IMG/VR virus record: IMGVR_UViG_3300050134_000048
Span: 1-31,782 of that record
Direction: 5' to 3' (one strand)
DNA: 31,782 bases
DNA from: a virus
The notes beneath the pieces are model-generated. The model was not told the DNA's origin. It was given only the letters and a program-made list of their open reading frames with translations, and did not search any database. A program made the translations under genes and the position numbers. Positions 1,311 to 28,222 of this stretch are shown piece by piece; the stretch's first letter is position 1; each line of letters opens with the position of its first letter.

Positions 1311-3899
1311 TTAGTTTACGATTCTTGCACCTTCGCGAAAGTAACAGTTCATGGCATTTAATTCCATAGGGGCTTGATGCGTAGCGACCTGATTCATGAG
1401 GTTATCATCATAGGTTAGACCGATACGAAGGTATTGACCAAATTGGGTGCTATAGAAGCGATACCATGCGTATTCGGAACCAGGTATGTATGTTTGCCCA
1501 TTCACCGGTGAAGTATTCCAAATTCCCCCCTTCGTATAAGTCCCAAATCCTGATGAATCAACGCCAGTTAAGCTAAAGTTATTAGAGTCAACGACTTTGA
1601 TTATATAGATGACACTATTCAATTGTGTCATACCTTGGACATTGGCGATATAAATGGCTGTTCCGCTGATTAAGCTGTGATCTGGACTGGTTATTACGCA
1701 AGGGTTGGCCTTTGTTGCGCCAGTGATAAAACCAGCTTGCTGAGAGGAGTTAATGAGTTCCTGATTGCCTGTAATAAGATTTGCTTGCTCGCCAAGGTAG
1801 GAGTTGACAAAAAGCTGAACTGTGATTGCAGGGATTGAAGGAATAGCTAGATTTGAATCCATTTGGAAATCAATGTAGGAAAGTTTGAATTGCTTTCCTT
1901 GTCCTTGATAAGGATTAAAGTCTTTGCCTACGATATTCATCTTAGGTAATAGGGCTACTAGTCCACTTCCTATGTAAACAGCTGAAGAAGTTATGGCAAT
2001 CGAATAATAGGTTTGGCTTGCTTGATCCCATGCAAACAAGTTAAAGGTATCTACAGATAAGACACTGACACTGTAAATTTGATTATTGATGCCGGGGTCA
2101 GCTATATTAAAGAGTGCTCCAGAAATATAAATGAATTCGCCATTGGCTAAATTATGGCTTGGAACTGTAATGACAATTGGCGAGCTGGGTGTTGCGCTAA
2201 AGGTAATAGCTGTTATGGCTAGGTTAGAAGGGTAAAGGAGAAAAGCCGGTTCAGGGGTTTCAGCATCGGGATTCTCATAGATAGTAATAAAGCCCTGTTG
2301 GTTGCCCGCAGTGACATAATCAACATAAGCCTGATCATCTACGTTGTCCCAAGAAACTGTGCTATCCCAGAAAGTTGTAAGGCTATCCCATGTAATGCCG
2401 AATTGAAATTGGCTTGTCCCAAAGCAAGTTATTGTATCCCTGAATTGTGCCCAAGTGTTGTTTTTGTAGTTGAAAAGCAATACAGTCGTCGGATAGTTTT
2501 GATAGATTTGTCTCGTTGACGTGTCGACATAATTCCAATAGACAATTTCCTTTTCAAAATCTCGGACACCATGGACAAAGTTCGGAGCATTTTCTTGAAT
2601 CTCAAAACTAAAGACAGTTTCCGGTATAGCTTCATCCAATCGGGATAGACCATTTGCTCCCGCTTGAATTATACCTCGGTCACTTACTGCCATAACTCCC
2701 TGATCAAATACAATAGGGCTATAAGTGCAGATAGCCCCGAAATCAGAAGAAATTCTTTCAAAAATGAAGGGAAGTCCATATTCTCCAATATATCTTAATT
2801 GCCACGTGGAATATTCAAAGAAGACTATCAAAGTATTTCGATAGAAAGCTGCGCTAACAATAGCTTCGTTTGTAGGTGCATCCAAAAAGCCACCACGTCC
2901 AAATATATCTCTACGCCAGCCATTTGTTTGATCTGTAGGGTCGCCAATTTGACTAAAAACACATCTAGCAAAGAAATTTGTTGCTCCTGCGACTCCACTT
3001 GACGTAGCTCCTTCCCATACGTTTAATTGTAAAAGACGACCATAATAAGGAATTATTATCAATGATTCCCATAATGTTACTGTGGCAGTCACAAGAGGGG
3101 TAAGATCTGTCCAAACTGAATTATTATAATATCTTGGAGGAGCGTATGGCGTTGCGGCTCCAAGGGTGATATTATTATTCGTAACGAAGAAATATCTAAG
3201 ATCTGGGGTTGCACCTTGGTAATTTGCTGACCAAAAGAAATCCGTATTAGTTCCTGTCCACACTGTACCAGGGGATAATTCTTGAAAACCAGCAACAAAT
3301 TGATACGCATAGACAGTATCGAAAAAGACTGTGGAATCTATTCCTATACTCGCGACATCTCTTTTGCATATACCCATGACCGGAAGTGTAGGATAATAGG
3401 CAAAGGAAATTGTCGAAGTTGCTGGGCCAACGGCTCCGGATGAAATGATTGTTACGATGCCAGTTGCATAATTGATTGTCGCTGACGTTATCGGGCCAGC
3501 TCCTGTCACAACCATAACGCCTGTTCCTGTGGAATCAGTTAATGTTTGGCTGATTGGGGATGCAAAAATAATAACAATGGGTGTTATGTTTCCTGGCTCT
3601 ATTGACGCAGCTGGTTGGCCAGTAATGCTCAATTGAAAGAAAATATTATAAGATTGTGATCCTATAACTAGCGTTGTGCTTCCTGCTGAGGCTGTTTCAA
3701 ATATTCTTCTTAAACGACCAATTGTAATGGAACCATCACGCTTTTTTGTTCTTTCTCGGAAAACATAGGCATTTTGAAGGTTGGAGAAAGCTTCATTCGC
3801 CAACATTAAAGGTTTGCGGTCTGTTGTTAGACCACCACCTGGATAACCGCCTATGAGAACCTGTTGAAAAGATGACATTAGTAACCTATAGCTGTCCAA
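1311..3899 (-). CDS. large tail/neck protein with repeated FCCH-like beta modules
   Basis: An 862-residue protein, the longest in the window. The N-terminus (PGGGLTTDRKPLMLANEAF, then NLQNAYVFRERTKKRDG) resembles the start of phage tail or DNA-stabilisation proteins that list an asparagine-rich opening and a kr-G motif. Near residues 560-650 and 720-795 are two modules of the kind annotated in phage proteins as 'ubiquitin-activating enzyme E1 FCCH': a V(I)T-x(2-3)-H-x-L segment, G-x-x-I/V-Y-I, a NxxIYxV strand and an xFxL strand. A further INYATG-I/V-T motif near residue 140 is shared with the 384-residue neck protein at 5019-6173. It overlaps the upstream fibre-like gene by 22 bp. Most likely a tail hub, tubular or stabilising protein; the exact role is not established. 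Confidence 0.8.
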   Translation of the reverse strand: MDSYRLLMSSFQQVLIGGYPGGGLTTDRKPLMLANEAFSNLQNAYVFRERTKKRDGSITIGRLRRIFETASAGSTTLVIGSQSYNIFFQLSITGQPAASIEPGNITPIVIIFASPISQTLTDSTGTGVMVVTGAGPITSATINYATGIVTIISSGAVGPATSTISFAYYPTLPVMGICKRDVASIGIDSTVFFDTVYAYQFVAGFQELSPGTVWTGTNTDFFWSANYQGATPDLRYFFVTNNNITLGAATPYAPPRYYNNSVWTDLTPLVTATVTLWESLIIIPYYGRLLQLNVWEGATSSGVAGATNFFARCVFSQIGDPTDQTNGWRRDIFGRGGFLDAPTNEAIVSAAFYRNTLIVFFEYSTWQLRYIGEYGLPFIFERISSDFGAICTYSPIVFDQGVMAVSDRGIIQAGANGLSRLDEAIPETVFSFEIQENAPNFVHGVRDFEKEIVYWNYVDTSTRQIYQNYPTTVLLFNYKNNTWAQFRDTITCFGTSQFQFGITWDSLTTFWDSTVSWDNVDDQAYVDYVTAGNQQGFITIYENPDAETPEPAFLLYPSNLAITAITFSATPSSPIVITVPSHNLANGEFIYISGALFNIADPGINNQIYSVSVLSVDTFNLFAWDQASQTYYSIAITSSAVYIGSGLVALLPKMNIVGKDFNPYQGQGKQFKLSYIDFQMDSNLAIPSIPAITVQLFVNSYLGEQANLITGNQELINSSQQAGFITGATKANPCVITSPDHSLISGTAIYIANVQGMTQLNSVIYIIKVVDSNNFSLTGVDSSGFGTYTKGGIWNTSPVNGQTYIPGSEYAWYRFYSTQFGQYLRIGLTYDDNLMNQVATHQAPMELNAMNCYFREGARIVN

Positions 3900-23558: not shown

Positions 23559-24080
23559 CTAAAAATCTAAAGTTCGTCTATCTTCTCCATCAAAACGCAT
23601 CGTTATTCCTGAAGTAATTCTACTTAAAATAGCACTTCCAAGCTTATCACGAACCTCTTTACCTGTTAGATTCGTAGTAATAATAGTTCCTAAAGTGTCT
23701 CGATTTTTCCATCGTGAATCGATAAGAGCATCAAGAAAATCCATGAAAGCATCGGAAGGGGTTTTTCTGCCCATATCATCTATTATCAATAGCTTAGTTC
23801 CTTTGAGTCTATCTGAGATATCTTTTGAACTACCTTGACTCTTAGCATCAAGCCATTGTTCGTTTAAGTCAGCTTGAGAAATGAAATAAGCAAGATCTTT
23901 ATCGTAATAAGGTAGCTTGTAAGGCGTATGAAGCTCATAAATGGCCTCGGCGATAAAACTTTTTCCTGTGCCATTGGCTCCGGCCATAAGAAAAAATCCA
24001 AAAGGCTTTCGAGCAAAGCGAAGGATCTTTTCCATTTCCTCGGGTGTTCTTCTGTTAATTTCCTTAAATTTTGGCATCAA
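23559..24080 (-). CDS. DnaC-like helicase loader (AAA+ ATPase)
   Basis: 173 residues. Walker A GANGTGKS at 34-41, Walker B LLIIDDMG at 97-104, sensor I TIITTNL at 132-138, and the arginine-finger-like ILSRI near 151-155. The size and order match DnaC/IstB-type AAA+ loaders that place the replicative helicase on the origin. It overlaps the initiator gene by 4 bp (ATGA-type), directly downstream as in lambda O/P. The N-terminal domain is short, so partner contact may differ from DnaC. Confidence 0.85.
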   Translation of the reverse strand: MMPKFKEINRRTPEEMEKILRFARKPFGFFLMAGANGTGKSFIAEAIYELHTPYKLPYYDKDLAYFISQADLNEQWLDAKSQGSSKDISDRLKGTKLLIIDDMGRKTPSDAFMDFLDALIDSRWKNRDTLGTIITTNLTGKEVRDKLGSAILSRITSGITMRFDGEDRRTLDF

Positions 24081-24874
24081 AATAATCCTTCTGCTTTGCT
24101 TTTCATGGGTGTTCCATCCATGTTTTTAGTGCCTCGTTCAACGGAAGCTTTTGGAAAATTAGCCTTGAAGGCTTTTTTATTCTCGGCGTAATCATTGGCT
24201 CGGGAGAACCAGCCTGTCAGGAACTTGCGCCAGAGCTTTTTTTTGCTTTTGGAGGGATTGGACTTAAGCCATTGAGTGGCTTTGGTAATCTCAAGGTCAA
24301 GGTTGACATTCGGGAACATGGCTACCCAATCTTTTCGATCCTCAAGGCTAATGCCTTCAAAAAGACAACTTTCAGAATTAAAAAAAAGATTTTCTTTTGT
24401 GTGAAGCGGCGCAGCCGACTGAGCATATACTTTGCTTTCTTCTTCTTTCTTTATATTCTTATTCTTTCTTAGTTCGTCGTTAGGCAGTCGTTGGTCAGTC
24501 GTTAGGCAGTCGTTAGGTCGGTCGTTACCCTCTGAAATATTTATGTCGTAAACATTTGAGGATAAGAGCTTTACCTTAGTACCTTCGGTCGTTACCCCAG
24601 TCGTTGACTTTTTGCGATTTCTGTTAGTTTCTGTAATTTCGAGGTGTTGGCGTTGAACAAGAATCTTCTTAGCAGTACGATAATTTTGCTCGGTCATTCC
24701 ATAACTTTTCCAATCACCGAGCAAAGCTTCACCAATATGTAAACCATCAGGCGCACCTTCATATCGACGAGCTAATTCGGCAATGATTGTTAAAAGTCGG
24801 AACGCATGACCTTTTTTTATTACAAGATACATGGCTTCTTCGGAAGGAATAAATTTAATGAATCTTTCAGACAT
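24077..24874 (-). CDS. replication initiator (DnaD/O-like)
   Basis: 265 residues. N-terminal part (FIKFIPSEEAMYLVIKKGHAF, then LLGDWKSYGMTEQNYRTAKK) reads as a winged-helix DNA-binding domain; a low-complexity Asn/Asp/Lys/Glu-rich linker follows (residues 115-150), and the C-terminal block (WLKSNPSKSKKKLWRKFLTGWFSRAND) is a pattern I know from phage replisome organisers. The DNA under the linker carries the iteron repeats. Its start codon is the end of a large inverted repeat (24873-24917). It likely opens the phage origin and hands over to the loader. Confidence 0.8.
   Translation of the reverse strand: MSERFIKFIPSEEAMYLVIKKGHAFRLLTIIAELARRYEGAPDGLHIGEALLGDWKSYGMTEQNYRTAKKILVQRQHLEITETNRNRKKSTTGVTTEGTKVKLLSSNVYDINISEGNDRPNDCLTTDQRLPNDELRKNKNIKKEEESKVYAQSAAPLHTKENLFFNSESCLFEGISLEDRKDWVAMFPNVNLDLEITKATQWLKSNPSKSKKKLWRKFLTGWFSRANDYAENKKAFKANFPKASVERGTKNMDGTPMKSKAEGLF
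24425..24608. other. candidate replication origin inside the initiator gene
   Basis: Direct repeats of GTCGTTAGG(CA) start at 24476, 24487, 24498, 24509 and 24521, spaced 11, 11, 11 and 12 bp; two more (GTCGTTACC at 24588 and GTCGTTGAC at 24600) are 12 bp apart. Next to them, 24425-24470 is a pyrimidine- and AT-rich run. The order on the coding strand (initiator DNA-binding end, iterons, AT-rich run) mirrors the lambda origin in gene O. The 11-bp period is not a multiple of three, so the repeat cannot be a protein repeat and must be kept as DNA. Confidence 0.7.
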
Positions 24875-24917
24875 AACACCCCATAAATCGATTGCAATCT
24901 TTGATGTGGGGTGTTAT
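24873..24917 (-). promoter_or_regulatory. inverted repeat over the initiator start
   Basis: ATAACACCCCA (24873-24883) and TGGGGTGTTAT (24907-24917) are 11-bp perfect arms. In the minus-strand RNA the GGGGTG of the downstream arm is the ribosome site and the arm ends at the ATG, so folding would hide the initiator start. The loop holds a second palindrome, GATTGCAATC. It may be an RNA switch or a protein operator. Confidence 0.6.
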
Positions 24918-24961
24918 ATTGGAGTTACAAGCTTCCATTGTATGTCCCCACGACATATCAA

Positions 24962-24990
24962 AAATACCCCGATTAGTCGTCGGGGTATTT
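24962..24990. terminator. bidirectional intrinsic terminator
   Basis: AAATACCCCGA and TCGGGGTATTT (11 bp) with a 7-nt loop. TTTTCTTTT follows on the plus strand and TTTTTGAT on the minus strand. It lies between the winged-helix gene and the initiator gene, so full read-through of the minus operon would need antitermination or another promoter. The region 24875-25041 has no other gene; a 60-residue frame across it is rejected. Confidence 0.75.
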
Positions 24991-25041
24991 TCTTTTGAAA
25001 CACTATCATATTTCATCCAATCATTACAATTAAGTTTGCTC

Positions 25042-26536: not shown

Positions 26537-27208
26537 ATGAATCAATCAGAAAATATAAATGAATTGGCAGCGGCTTTAGCAAAAGCTCAAGGCGAAATGC
26601 AACCTGTGTATAAAGATAAGAAAGTTGCTTTCGATACGCAAAAGAATGACAGGGTTAAATATAAGTACGCTGATTTGGCTGCTGTATGGGATTCTTGCCG
26701 GCAACCTCTATCCGCTCATGGCCTGGCTGTTGTGCAAACCATGGAATCAATAGACGGCTTTTGGGTACTTACTTCGACTCTTACCCATTCATCCGGTCAA
26801 TGGATGAAATCTATGCTTCCTATTAATGTAAATACCGCGCCTGCTGCCTTGGGTTCAATCATCACTTACATGCGCCGTTATGCTTTGTGTGCCATGGTGG
26901 GTATAGCTCCAGAAGATGATGACGGTCAGGAAGCAACAAAGGATTATGAAAACAATGTTAAGCAAGTTGTTCAAAAAAAACAACCTGATATATCAAATGA
27001 CCGGATAGAGACAAATGAAATCATTGCGATATCGACTTTGGCCGATAAGCTGGATGGAGAAAGCTTTAAATCGTTTATGGGATGGATAAAAGTAACTTTT
27101 GATGCTTTGTCTATTTCTGACATACCAAAGAATGCCGTTGAACGGTGTTTAAATTTAATCAATGCGAAAATTAAGCTAATTAATGATCAAAACAGGGTAG
27201 TGGCATAA
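26537..27208 (+). CDS. erf: ERF-family single-strand annealing protein
   Basis: 223 residues. The N-terminal 145 residues follow the ERF pattern: LAAALAKAQGEMQPV, YKYADLAAVWDSCRQPLSAHGLAV, then TSTLTHSSGQWMKS and a GSIITYMRRYALCAMVGIAPEDDD stretch, which is the classic end of the ERF core. The C-terminal part is a variable tail with helix-rich sequence. ERF proteins anneal complementary single strands and help recombine or circularise phage DNA. Placed next to a YqaJ-type exonuclease. Confidence 0.88.
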   Translation: MNQSENINELAAALAKAQGEMQPVYKDKKVAFDTQKNDRVKYKYADLAAVWDSCRQPLSAHGLAVVQTMESIDGFWVLTSTLTHSSGQWMKSMLPINVNTAPAALGSIITYMRRYALCAMVGIAPEDDDGQEATKDYENNVKQVVQKKQPDISNDRIETNEIIAISTLADKLDGESFKSFMGWIKVTFDALSISDIPKNAVERCLNLINAKIKLINDQNRVVA

Positions 27209-27366
27209 TGAAGTTTTGGAAAATTGATTTAGAAACAAGGATTTTTAATCTATCTTTAGAAATAAAGCATTTGGTTGAGGAATATGACTTAGATAAACGA
27301 GTTATAGTTTCTGATTTTGAGGATCTAATAAATTCTAATTTTGAAGAGGAAAAAGATGAAGTATAA
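27208..27366 (+). CDS. small acidic early protein, 52 aa
   Basis: MKFWKIDLETRIFNLSLEIK, then acidic helix ending FEEEKDEV. TAATG-coupled to ERF, and overlaps the exonuclease start by 11 bp. Its position between the two recombination genes suggests a partner, but no motif supports a role. Confidence 0.55.
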   Translation: MKFWKIDLETRIFNLSLEIKHLVEEYDLDKRVIVSDFEDLINSNFEEEKDEV

Positions 27367-28222
27367 GAAAGTAAATGTAGAGCAAGGATCGAAAGAGTGG
27401 CTGAATTGGAGGAAGTCGGTGATTACGGCCACCGACTGCCCTTCGATACTGGGAACGAGTAAATTTCAGACTGCATACAAGTGTTGGCAACGTAAATGCA
27501 GTCTTATAGGGGAGCAAACTTGCAACGCTGCTATGGAACGCGGCTCTATGCTTGAGCCTCAAGCTAGAGATAATTTCATAAAGAAATATGGCATTAATAT
27601 GACGCCAACGGTAGTAGAAAGCAAGGAATATGAATTCTTGGGTGCTTCTCTCGATGGAATATCAGATTGCGGTAACTATATTCTAGAAATCAAGTGTGGG
27701 GAAAAATCCTACACTATGGCTTTGAATGGTGAAATACCTCCCTATTATGTAGATCAAATGCAACACCAGCTTTTAGTGACTCAGGCTGAAAAATGCTTTT
27801 ACTATTGCTATAATGGTAAGGAAGGGAAGTGCTTAGAAGTTTTTAAAGACCCTGAATTTGAAAGCAAGTTTCTGCCGATAGCGAGAAAGTTTTGGAAGGG
27901 AGTAGCCTGTTTTGAGCCGCCTTCTTTAGCGGCAAGTGATTACCTAGATATGAACGATAATTTATCTTGGTTAAAATACGCTACCATGTATCAGGAAGTC
28001 GAAGCTTCGATCAAATCTTTAGAAGAACGAAAGGATTATATACGAAAGAAGCTCATAGAGCTATGTGGGGATAATTCCTGTCAAGGCTATGGAGTAAAAG
28101 TTATAAGCACACTTATGAAAGGGCGTGTTGCCTATGACGAGATACCGGAGATAAAGGGTATCGATCTTGATAAATATCGGAAGGGTACGACAAAGACTTG
28201 GAAAATACTTATTGATAAGTAA
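27356..28222 (+). CDS. YqaJ/lambda-exo-type recombinase nuclease
   Basis: 288 residues from the ATG at 27356 (GAGG upstream; a TTG 5 codons earlier lacks support). VNVEQGSKEWLNWRKSVITATDCPSILG, then RGSMLEPQARD with E67, GASLDG with D100, and LEIKCG with E111 and K113. These are the catalytic residues of the YqaJ/lambda exonuclease fold (D-ExK). A QMQHQLLVT helix follows. The last 100 residues are a helical addition. It chews 5' ends to leave single strands for ERF. Confidence 0.88.
   Translation: MKYKKVNVEQGSKEWLNWRKSVITATDCPSILGTSKFQTAYKCWQRKCSLIGEQTCNAAMERGSMLEPQARDNFIKKYGINMTPTVVESKEYEFLGASLDGISDCGNYILEIKCGEKSYTMALNGEIPPYYVDQMQHQLLVTQAEKCFYYCYNGKEGKCLEVFKDPEFESKFLPIARKFWKGVACFEPPSLAASDYLDMNDNLSWLKYATMYQEVEASIKSLEERKDYIRKKLIELCGDNSCQGYGVKVISTLMKGRVAYDEIPEIKGIDLDKYRKGTTKTWKILIDK

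Follow-up and report, generated by a model that had tools for sequence, protein, structure and literature searches.

The region inside the initiator gene of this phage is very probably its theta-type replication origin, organised on the lambda O/ori plan. The DNA analysed, referred to below as the window, comprises 31,782 bases and comes from IMG/VR as a virus record. A preliminary description had proposed an iteron-type origin nested in the initiator gene, and this is the best reading of a repeat array that is conserved in relatives while its unit drifts, of covariation between a predicted recognition helix and the iterons, of an adjoining AT-rich run and of a neighbouring gene for a helicase loader. 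At the level of sequence, the reading is also supported by the exchange of modules among relatives and by a linkage between the tail of the initiator and the presence of the loader. The features and their positions are summarized in Table 1.

Table 1. Features of the origin region and their positions in the window.
Feature	Position	Strand	Remarks
DnaC-like AAA+ helicase loader gene, 173 aa	23559..24080	minus	phrog_50, E 1.1e-23; IstB/DnaC-type ATPase
Initiator gene, 265 aa	24077..24874	minus	Predicted winged-helix DNA-binding domain at the N-terminus, then an iteron-encoded linker and a C-terminal domain
C-terminal tail RGTKNMDGTPMKSKAEGLF	24080..24139	minus	Bears the GxP..F motif, found together with a neighbouring loader gene
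Exchangeable C-terminal domain	24158..24409	minus	Type 'FEGI..DW..P..W.K.NPSK..WRKFLTGWF'; other types follow the same block in relatives
Purine/AT-rich run beside the iterons	about 24430..24476	minus	Candidate DNA unwinding element; contains the least stable 40-bp window of the gene
Main block of five iterons (24474-24529)	24474-24484, 24485-24495, 24496-24506, 24507-24517, 24519-24529	minus	Consensus CCTAACGACTG, read on the coding strand
Upstream iteron pair	24586-24596, 24598-24608	minus	GTCAACGACTG, GGTAACGACCG; 12-bp step
Predicted recognition helix, codons 61-74	24653..24694	minus	AlphaFold model and covariation

The N-terminus of the initiator resembles a winged helix in an AlphaFold model (mean pLDDT 73), in which the recognition helix spans residues 62-74. 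Structure comparison of this model gave no specific match to a known structure: the best Foldseek E was 0.2, and generic winged helices scored a Z of at most 7.6. Membership of one specific structural family was considered and rejected, as Foldseek and VIA both returned generic winged helices only. A sequence search of solved structures with the initiator gave no match, and the initiator family matches no family in Pfam. The lambda O family (Phage_rep_O) was matched neither by the window initiator nor by any of 26 family members; in the control, lambda O itself matches at E 5.7e-36. Assignment of the window protein to a PHROG initiator family was likewise ruled out, with no match found.

Several other features lie in and around the initiator gene. 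Its leader (24873-24917, minus strand) holds a conserved GCAA flanked by an inverted repeat, AACACCCCA..TGGGGTGTT; this repeat contains a Shine-Dalgarno-like GGGG and abuts the ATG. The inverted repeat is kept in twenty relatives, with one pair found as UA or CG (10/7) and with 13 two-sided cells against 5.4 in shuffled sequences. RNAalifold predicted no structure for the leader, and the repeat could possibly be a translational hairpin or an operator. Upstream of the gene, a perfect 12-bp inverted repeat with a T-rich flank (AAAATACCCCGA/TCGGGGTATTTT, 24961-24991) is terminator-like. A G+C-rich stem of the CGGCTGCGCCG type occupies about 24400-24422, at the border of the swapped C-terminal module, and is also found in relatives L020, L026 and L039. 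On the opposite strand, an Erf-like annealing protein and a RecE-like exonuclease (26537-28222) make up a recombination module next to the origin region. The HNH/endonuclease VII gene at 22411-23178 matches Lar-like restriction alleviation families at its N-terminus.

Seven copies of an AACGAC core (GTCGTT on the complementary strand) lie on the minus strand, all inside the initiator gene. In the coding direction, the five copies of the main block follow each other at steps of 12, 11, 11 and 11 bp, and the upstream pair lies 67 bp from the block, start to start. The preliminary description had reported five repeats at steps of 11-12 bp and two more copies 60-80 bp away, which is accurate in both coordinates and gap. 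The pair falls in codons for the predicted wing loop (residues 89-98). Outside these seven copies, AACGAC[CT]G does not occur in the 31.8-kb window. The unit has no dyad symmetry above random expectation. Identity at a lag of 11 reaches 27 of 33 positions in the block and is the top lag match of the whole window, whereas first-order Markov sequences of window length gave a mean of 19 and a maximum of 23, and synonymous-codon shuffles of the initiator gene (300 and 500) reached maxima of 24 and 23. As positive controls, the same scan recovers the annotated lambda iterons (lag 20) and the published iterons of phage L/ST64T (lag 11). The seven-copy repeat array is real and is more than coding chance.

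Relatives of the initiator were collected by scanning viral contigs, using the protein first and alignments afterwards. This yielded more than 25 distinct relatives from environmental phages, together with Vibrio phage 1.177.O and its kin, and they are 30-75% identical to the window initiator. Two scans of genome contigs and one scan of plasmids gave no relatives, and terminase matches are scattered among gammaproteobacterial and other phages. Nearly every intact relative has an array at this place, and most keep the 2+5 layout with block steps of 12-11-11-11. The unit itself differs by lineage (TAACGACCG, GCGACGACCG, AACCAACGA, GGGCGACCGAG, ACGAATG, AACGACAAC). Conservation of the repeats in related phages, to which the preliminary description had pointed, is thus found as an array that is kept while its unit drifts: pooled over related genes, the block has a lag-11 identity of 0.574, codon-shuffled genes one of 0.392 (z 18.9), and lag 22 gives another peak. 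The upstream pair is closer to its own gene's unit than to those of other genes (permutation p 2e-4, relatedness not removed), and the amino acids encoded by the pair follow the unit, Thr becoming Asn where ACT becomes AAT.

Directly after the main block lies the AT-rich run, which is purine-rich on the coding strand and pyrimidine-rich on the plus strand, as the preliminary description had it. In lambda O, taken as a control, the least stable 40-bp window of the gene likewise falls in the AT tract, and in nearly all relatives the run directly follows the block. Initiator-binding iterons of plasmids serve control, and a mainly regulatory role for the present iterons as initiator-binding sites (autorepression, handcuffing, or a block to replication or transcription forks), with replication starting elsewhere in the genome, is the strongest alternative, though an improbable one. 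The upstream pair, set apart from the AT run, would suit such a role, and in Bacillus phage SPP1 there is another origin that lies outside the initiator gene (PMC6316719). However, the AT-rich run goes with the block in nearly all relatives, the window contains the core array only once, and an operator of the promoter type should lie upstream of the gene rather than in its middle. Cumulative GC skew was also considered as an origin marker and is uninformative for this window; its minimum, at 19.3 kb, lies near the change of coding strand and not at the array, and the ends of the contig are unknown.

Recognition of the iterons by the initiator was approached through covariation. The copies were put in register, by hand for L021, L038 and the Vibrio-type sequences, and all columns of the DNA-binding domain were set against all bases of the unit. 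Residue 63 determined base 1 in all 25 sequences of the first set and ranked first among 97 columns. This base-1 rule was recorded before six more relatives (L053, L064, L067, L072, L075 and L076) were fetched, and all six obeyed it. For bases 1-2 the correspondence with residue 63 holds in 32 of 32 sequences, where glutamine (17) or methionine (1) occurs with AA, arginine (7) or glycine (2) with GA, and lysine (5) with GG; for base 1, no other domain column scores as well as residue 63 (z 12.7). Base 4 follows residues 62 and 69, and R62 combined with L/I69 goes with C at this base in five of five sequences. L064 and L076, the later relatives that bear R62, both have C at base 4, as predicted from L039-L041. 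Residue 67 was hinted at by the first set as a determinant of base 2, but was not borne out by the held-out L053, L067 and L075. Columns 88-98 also score highly; they are encoded by the upstream iterons themselves, so they are not independent.

In a tree built without the helix and wing columns, base 1 changes at least eight times and the class of residue 63 eight times. Sampled independent pairs on this tree are always in agreement, but only two of the eight base-1 changes fall on strongly supported branches of this short tree (84 columns), so that the agreement is not significant by a sign test alone. Judged by their covariation, residues 62-63 and 69 of the recognition helix appear to read bases 1, 2 and 4 of the iteron. 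The chemistry of the residue-63 rule, glutamine with adenine and arginine or lysine with guanine, is plausible. No earlier report of helix-iteron covariation in this initiator family was found in the open-licence literature. On balance, we favour the view that the window initiator represents a large unnamed family with an in-gene origin lying partly in wing codons. The specificity of this family would have been diversified repeatedly by paired changes in two to three helix residues and in all seven iterons, giving a readable code (Q63: AA, R63: GA, K63: GG; R62 with L/I69: C at base 4).

Among relatives, at least four kinds of C-terminal domain follow the DNA-binding domain and its iterons, and some of these match the PHROG 'replisome organizer'. 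Related initiators having the same linker without repeats, which according to the preliminary description would speak against an origin here, are represented by a sole case, L032. In this phage, a truncated 118-aa remnant of the old DNA-binding domain (2237-2593) is without iterons and is followed directly by a replacement initiator (2586-3509). The replacement has an unrelated N-terminal domain with its own GGGCCAACA iterons at 11-bp steps (28/33, codon-shuffle maximum 24), and its C-terminal part is of the same type as that of L028, at 66% identity. Since the domain in L032 was replaced together with its iterons, the iterons travel with the DNA-binding domain.

Such exchange could also mean that the repeats are a relic or a recombination joint, a hot spot for exchange between initiator modules and not a working origin. 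This is a still smaller prospect than regulation: C-terminal domains are indeed swapped just downstream of the block, and a domain replacement is seen in L032, but the matched drift of all copies with the helix residues needs a continued binding function, and exchange is expected at a working origin too. That the repeats arose as a side effect of a repetitive linker peptide or of codon bias is hardly credible, for although the linker is of low complexity and rich in T, N, D and R, codon-shuffled genes fail to reproduce the array, the unit is read in all three frames while the peptide has no repeat of matching step, and amino acids change along with the unit. The preliminary description had dismissed a protein repeat on the 11-bp step alone, and that argument is insufficient because three 11-bp steps correspond to an 11-aa period; its conclusion is retained, as a protein-repeat or codon-bias source is ruled out by the codon shuffles and a protein cause is excluded by the covariation as well.

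The gene next to the initiator, in the same direction, encodes the DnaC-like loader, so the order of initiator and loader given in the preliminary description, and its likeness to the lambda O/P plan, are confirmed. All ten initiator genes with the GxP..F tail motif have an adjacent DnaC-like loader, against 3 of the 22 without the motif (Fisher p 4e-6, relatedness not removed). Two of these three motif-less cases, L020 and L021, have in common another tail, SR[IV]L[RK]GSN, and a more distant AAA+ loader. Because the type of tail co-occurs with the loader, it is suggested that the C-terminal tail docks the loader.

For an in-gene origin of this kind, we infer binding of the iterons by the initiator, its monomer stoichiometry, melting, recruitment of the loader and the start of replication at the array. 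The N-terminal winged helix would bind one 11-bp iteron per monomer and, as an iteron spans about one helical turn, successive monomers would line up head to tail along a single face of the DNA. Within each site, bases 1, 2 and 4 of the AACGACYG core would be read by the start of the recognition helix (residues 62-63, and 69). An initiator complex assembled on the five-copy block would melt the adjoining AT-rich run, and the upstream pair probably provides extra binding sites that stabilise or regulate this complex. The C-terminal domain and tail would then recruit the adjacent DnaC-like loader, which would deliver the host DnaB helicase.

Origins of this kind are already known, but their specificity can rarely be read from sequence. 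One initiator family here provides about 30 natural protein-iteron pairs, and a simple rule has already predicted held-out members. How an origin changes without loss of replication, with protein and sites in the same DNA, is directly testable by single substitutions. The tail-loader linkage is a similar handle on the choice of helicase loader by initiators.

Lambda O has its DNA-binding domain at the N-terminus and the next gene encodes the loader P, which is the same plan as found here. Lambda and Stx phages are the classical examples of iteron origins located centrally within the initiator gene (PMC7466680), and lambda iterons are 18 bp long with hyphenated symmetry, each binding two O proteins (PMC6022878). 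As in the window, the iterons of lambda ori lie mid-gene with an AT-rich tract directly downstream. Lambda differs in having four 18-bp iterons with a dyad at steps of 20, 24 and 23, whereas the present array comprises five plus two 11-bp units without a dyad; moreover, the loader is P in lambda and an AAA+ DnaC-like protein here, and the present initiator has no Phage_rep_O match. The preliminary description had called the iteron unrelated-looking, which holds against lambda but not against phage L (PMC8022706) or the Vibrio relative, both of which have 11-bp repeats.

Gene 18 of Salmonella phage L contains imprecise 11-bp direct repeats (TGTCCAACGGA), although as an origin this site is only proposed (PMC8022706). 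In phage L/ST64T (AY052766), as here, 11-bp direct repeats lie inside the initiator gene in two clusters and give a lag-11 signal. The clusters are 3+2 in ST64T versus 5+2 here, and the next gene encodes a DnaB-type helicase rather than a DnaC-like loader. The window initiator has no BLAST match to the phage L/ST64T initiator (E > 0.05), and a distant relation is possible. The initiator of Vibrio phage 1.177.O (MG592544) is a distant relative, 35-37% identical over the DNA-binding domain, and likewise has 11-bp in-gene repeats, with R63 accompanied by G at base 1. It differs in its unit (AAGCGACAGGC), its O-like C-terminus and the DnaB-like gene that follows.

Similar arrangements are known beyond these phages. 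At oriL of SPP1, in gene 38, the origin-binding protein binds direct repeats in its own gene (PMC6316719). Going by its published description, SPP1 oriL shares with the window the in-gene repeats, an AT-rich unwinding element and work with a loader, and SPP1 differs in its second origin. In the RepA_N replicons of PLEs, the DNA-binding domain and the origin co-vary and are swapped as one module, with retention of the C-terminal domain (PMC8263062). The PLE origin is intergenic with semi-palindromic iterons of about 30 bp, whereas the array in the window is in-gene and is built from units of 11 bp.
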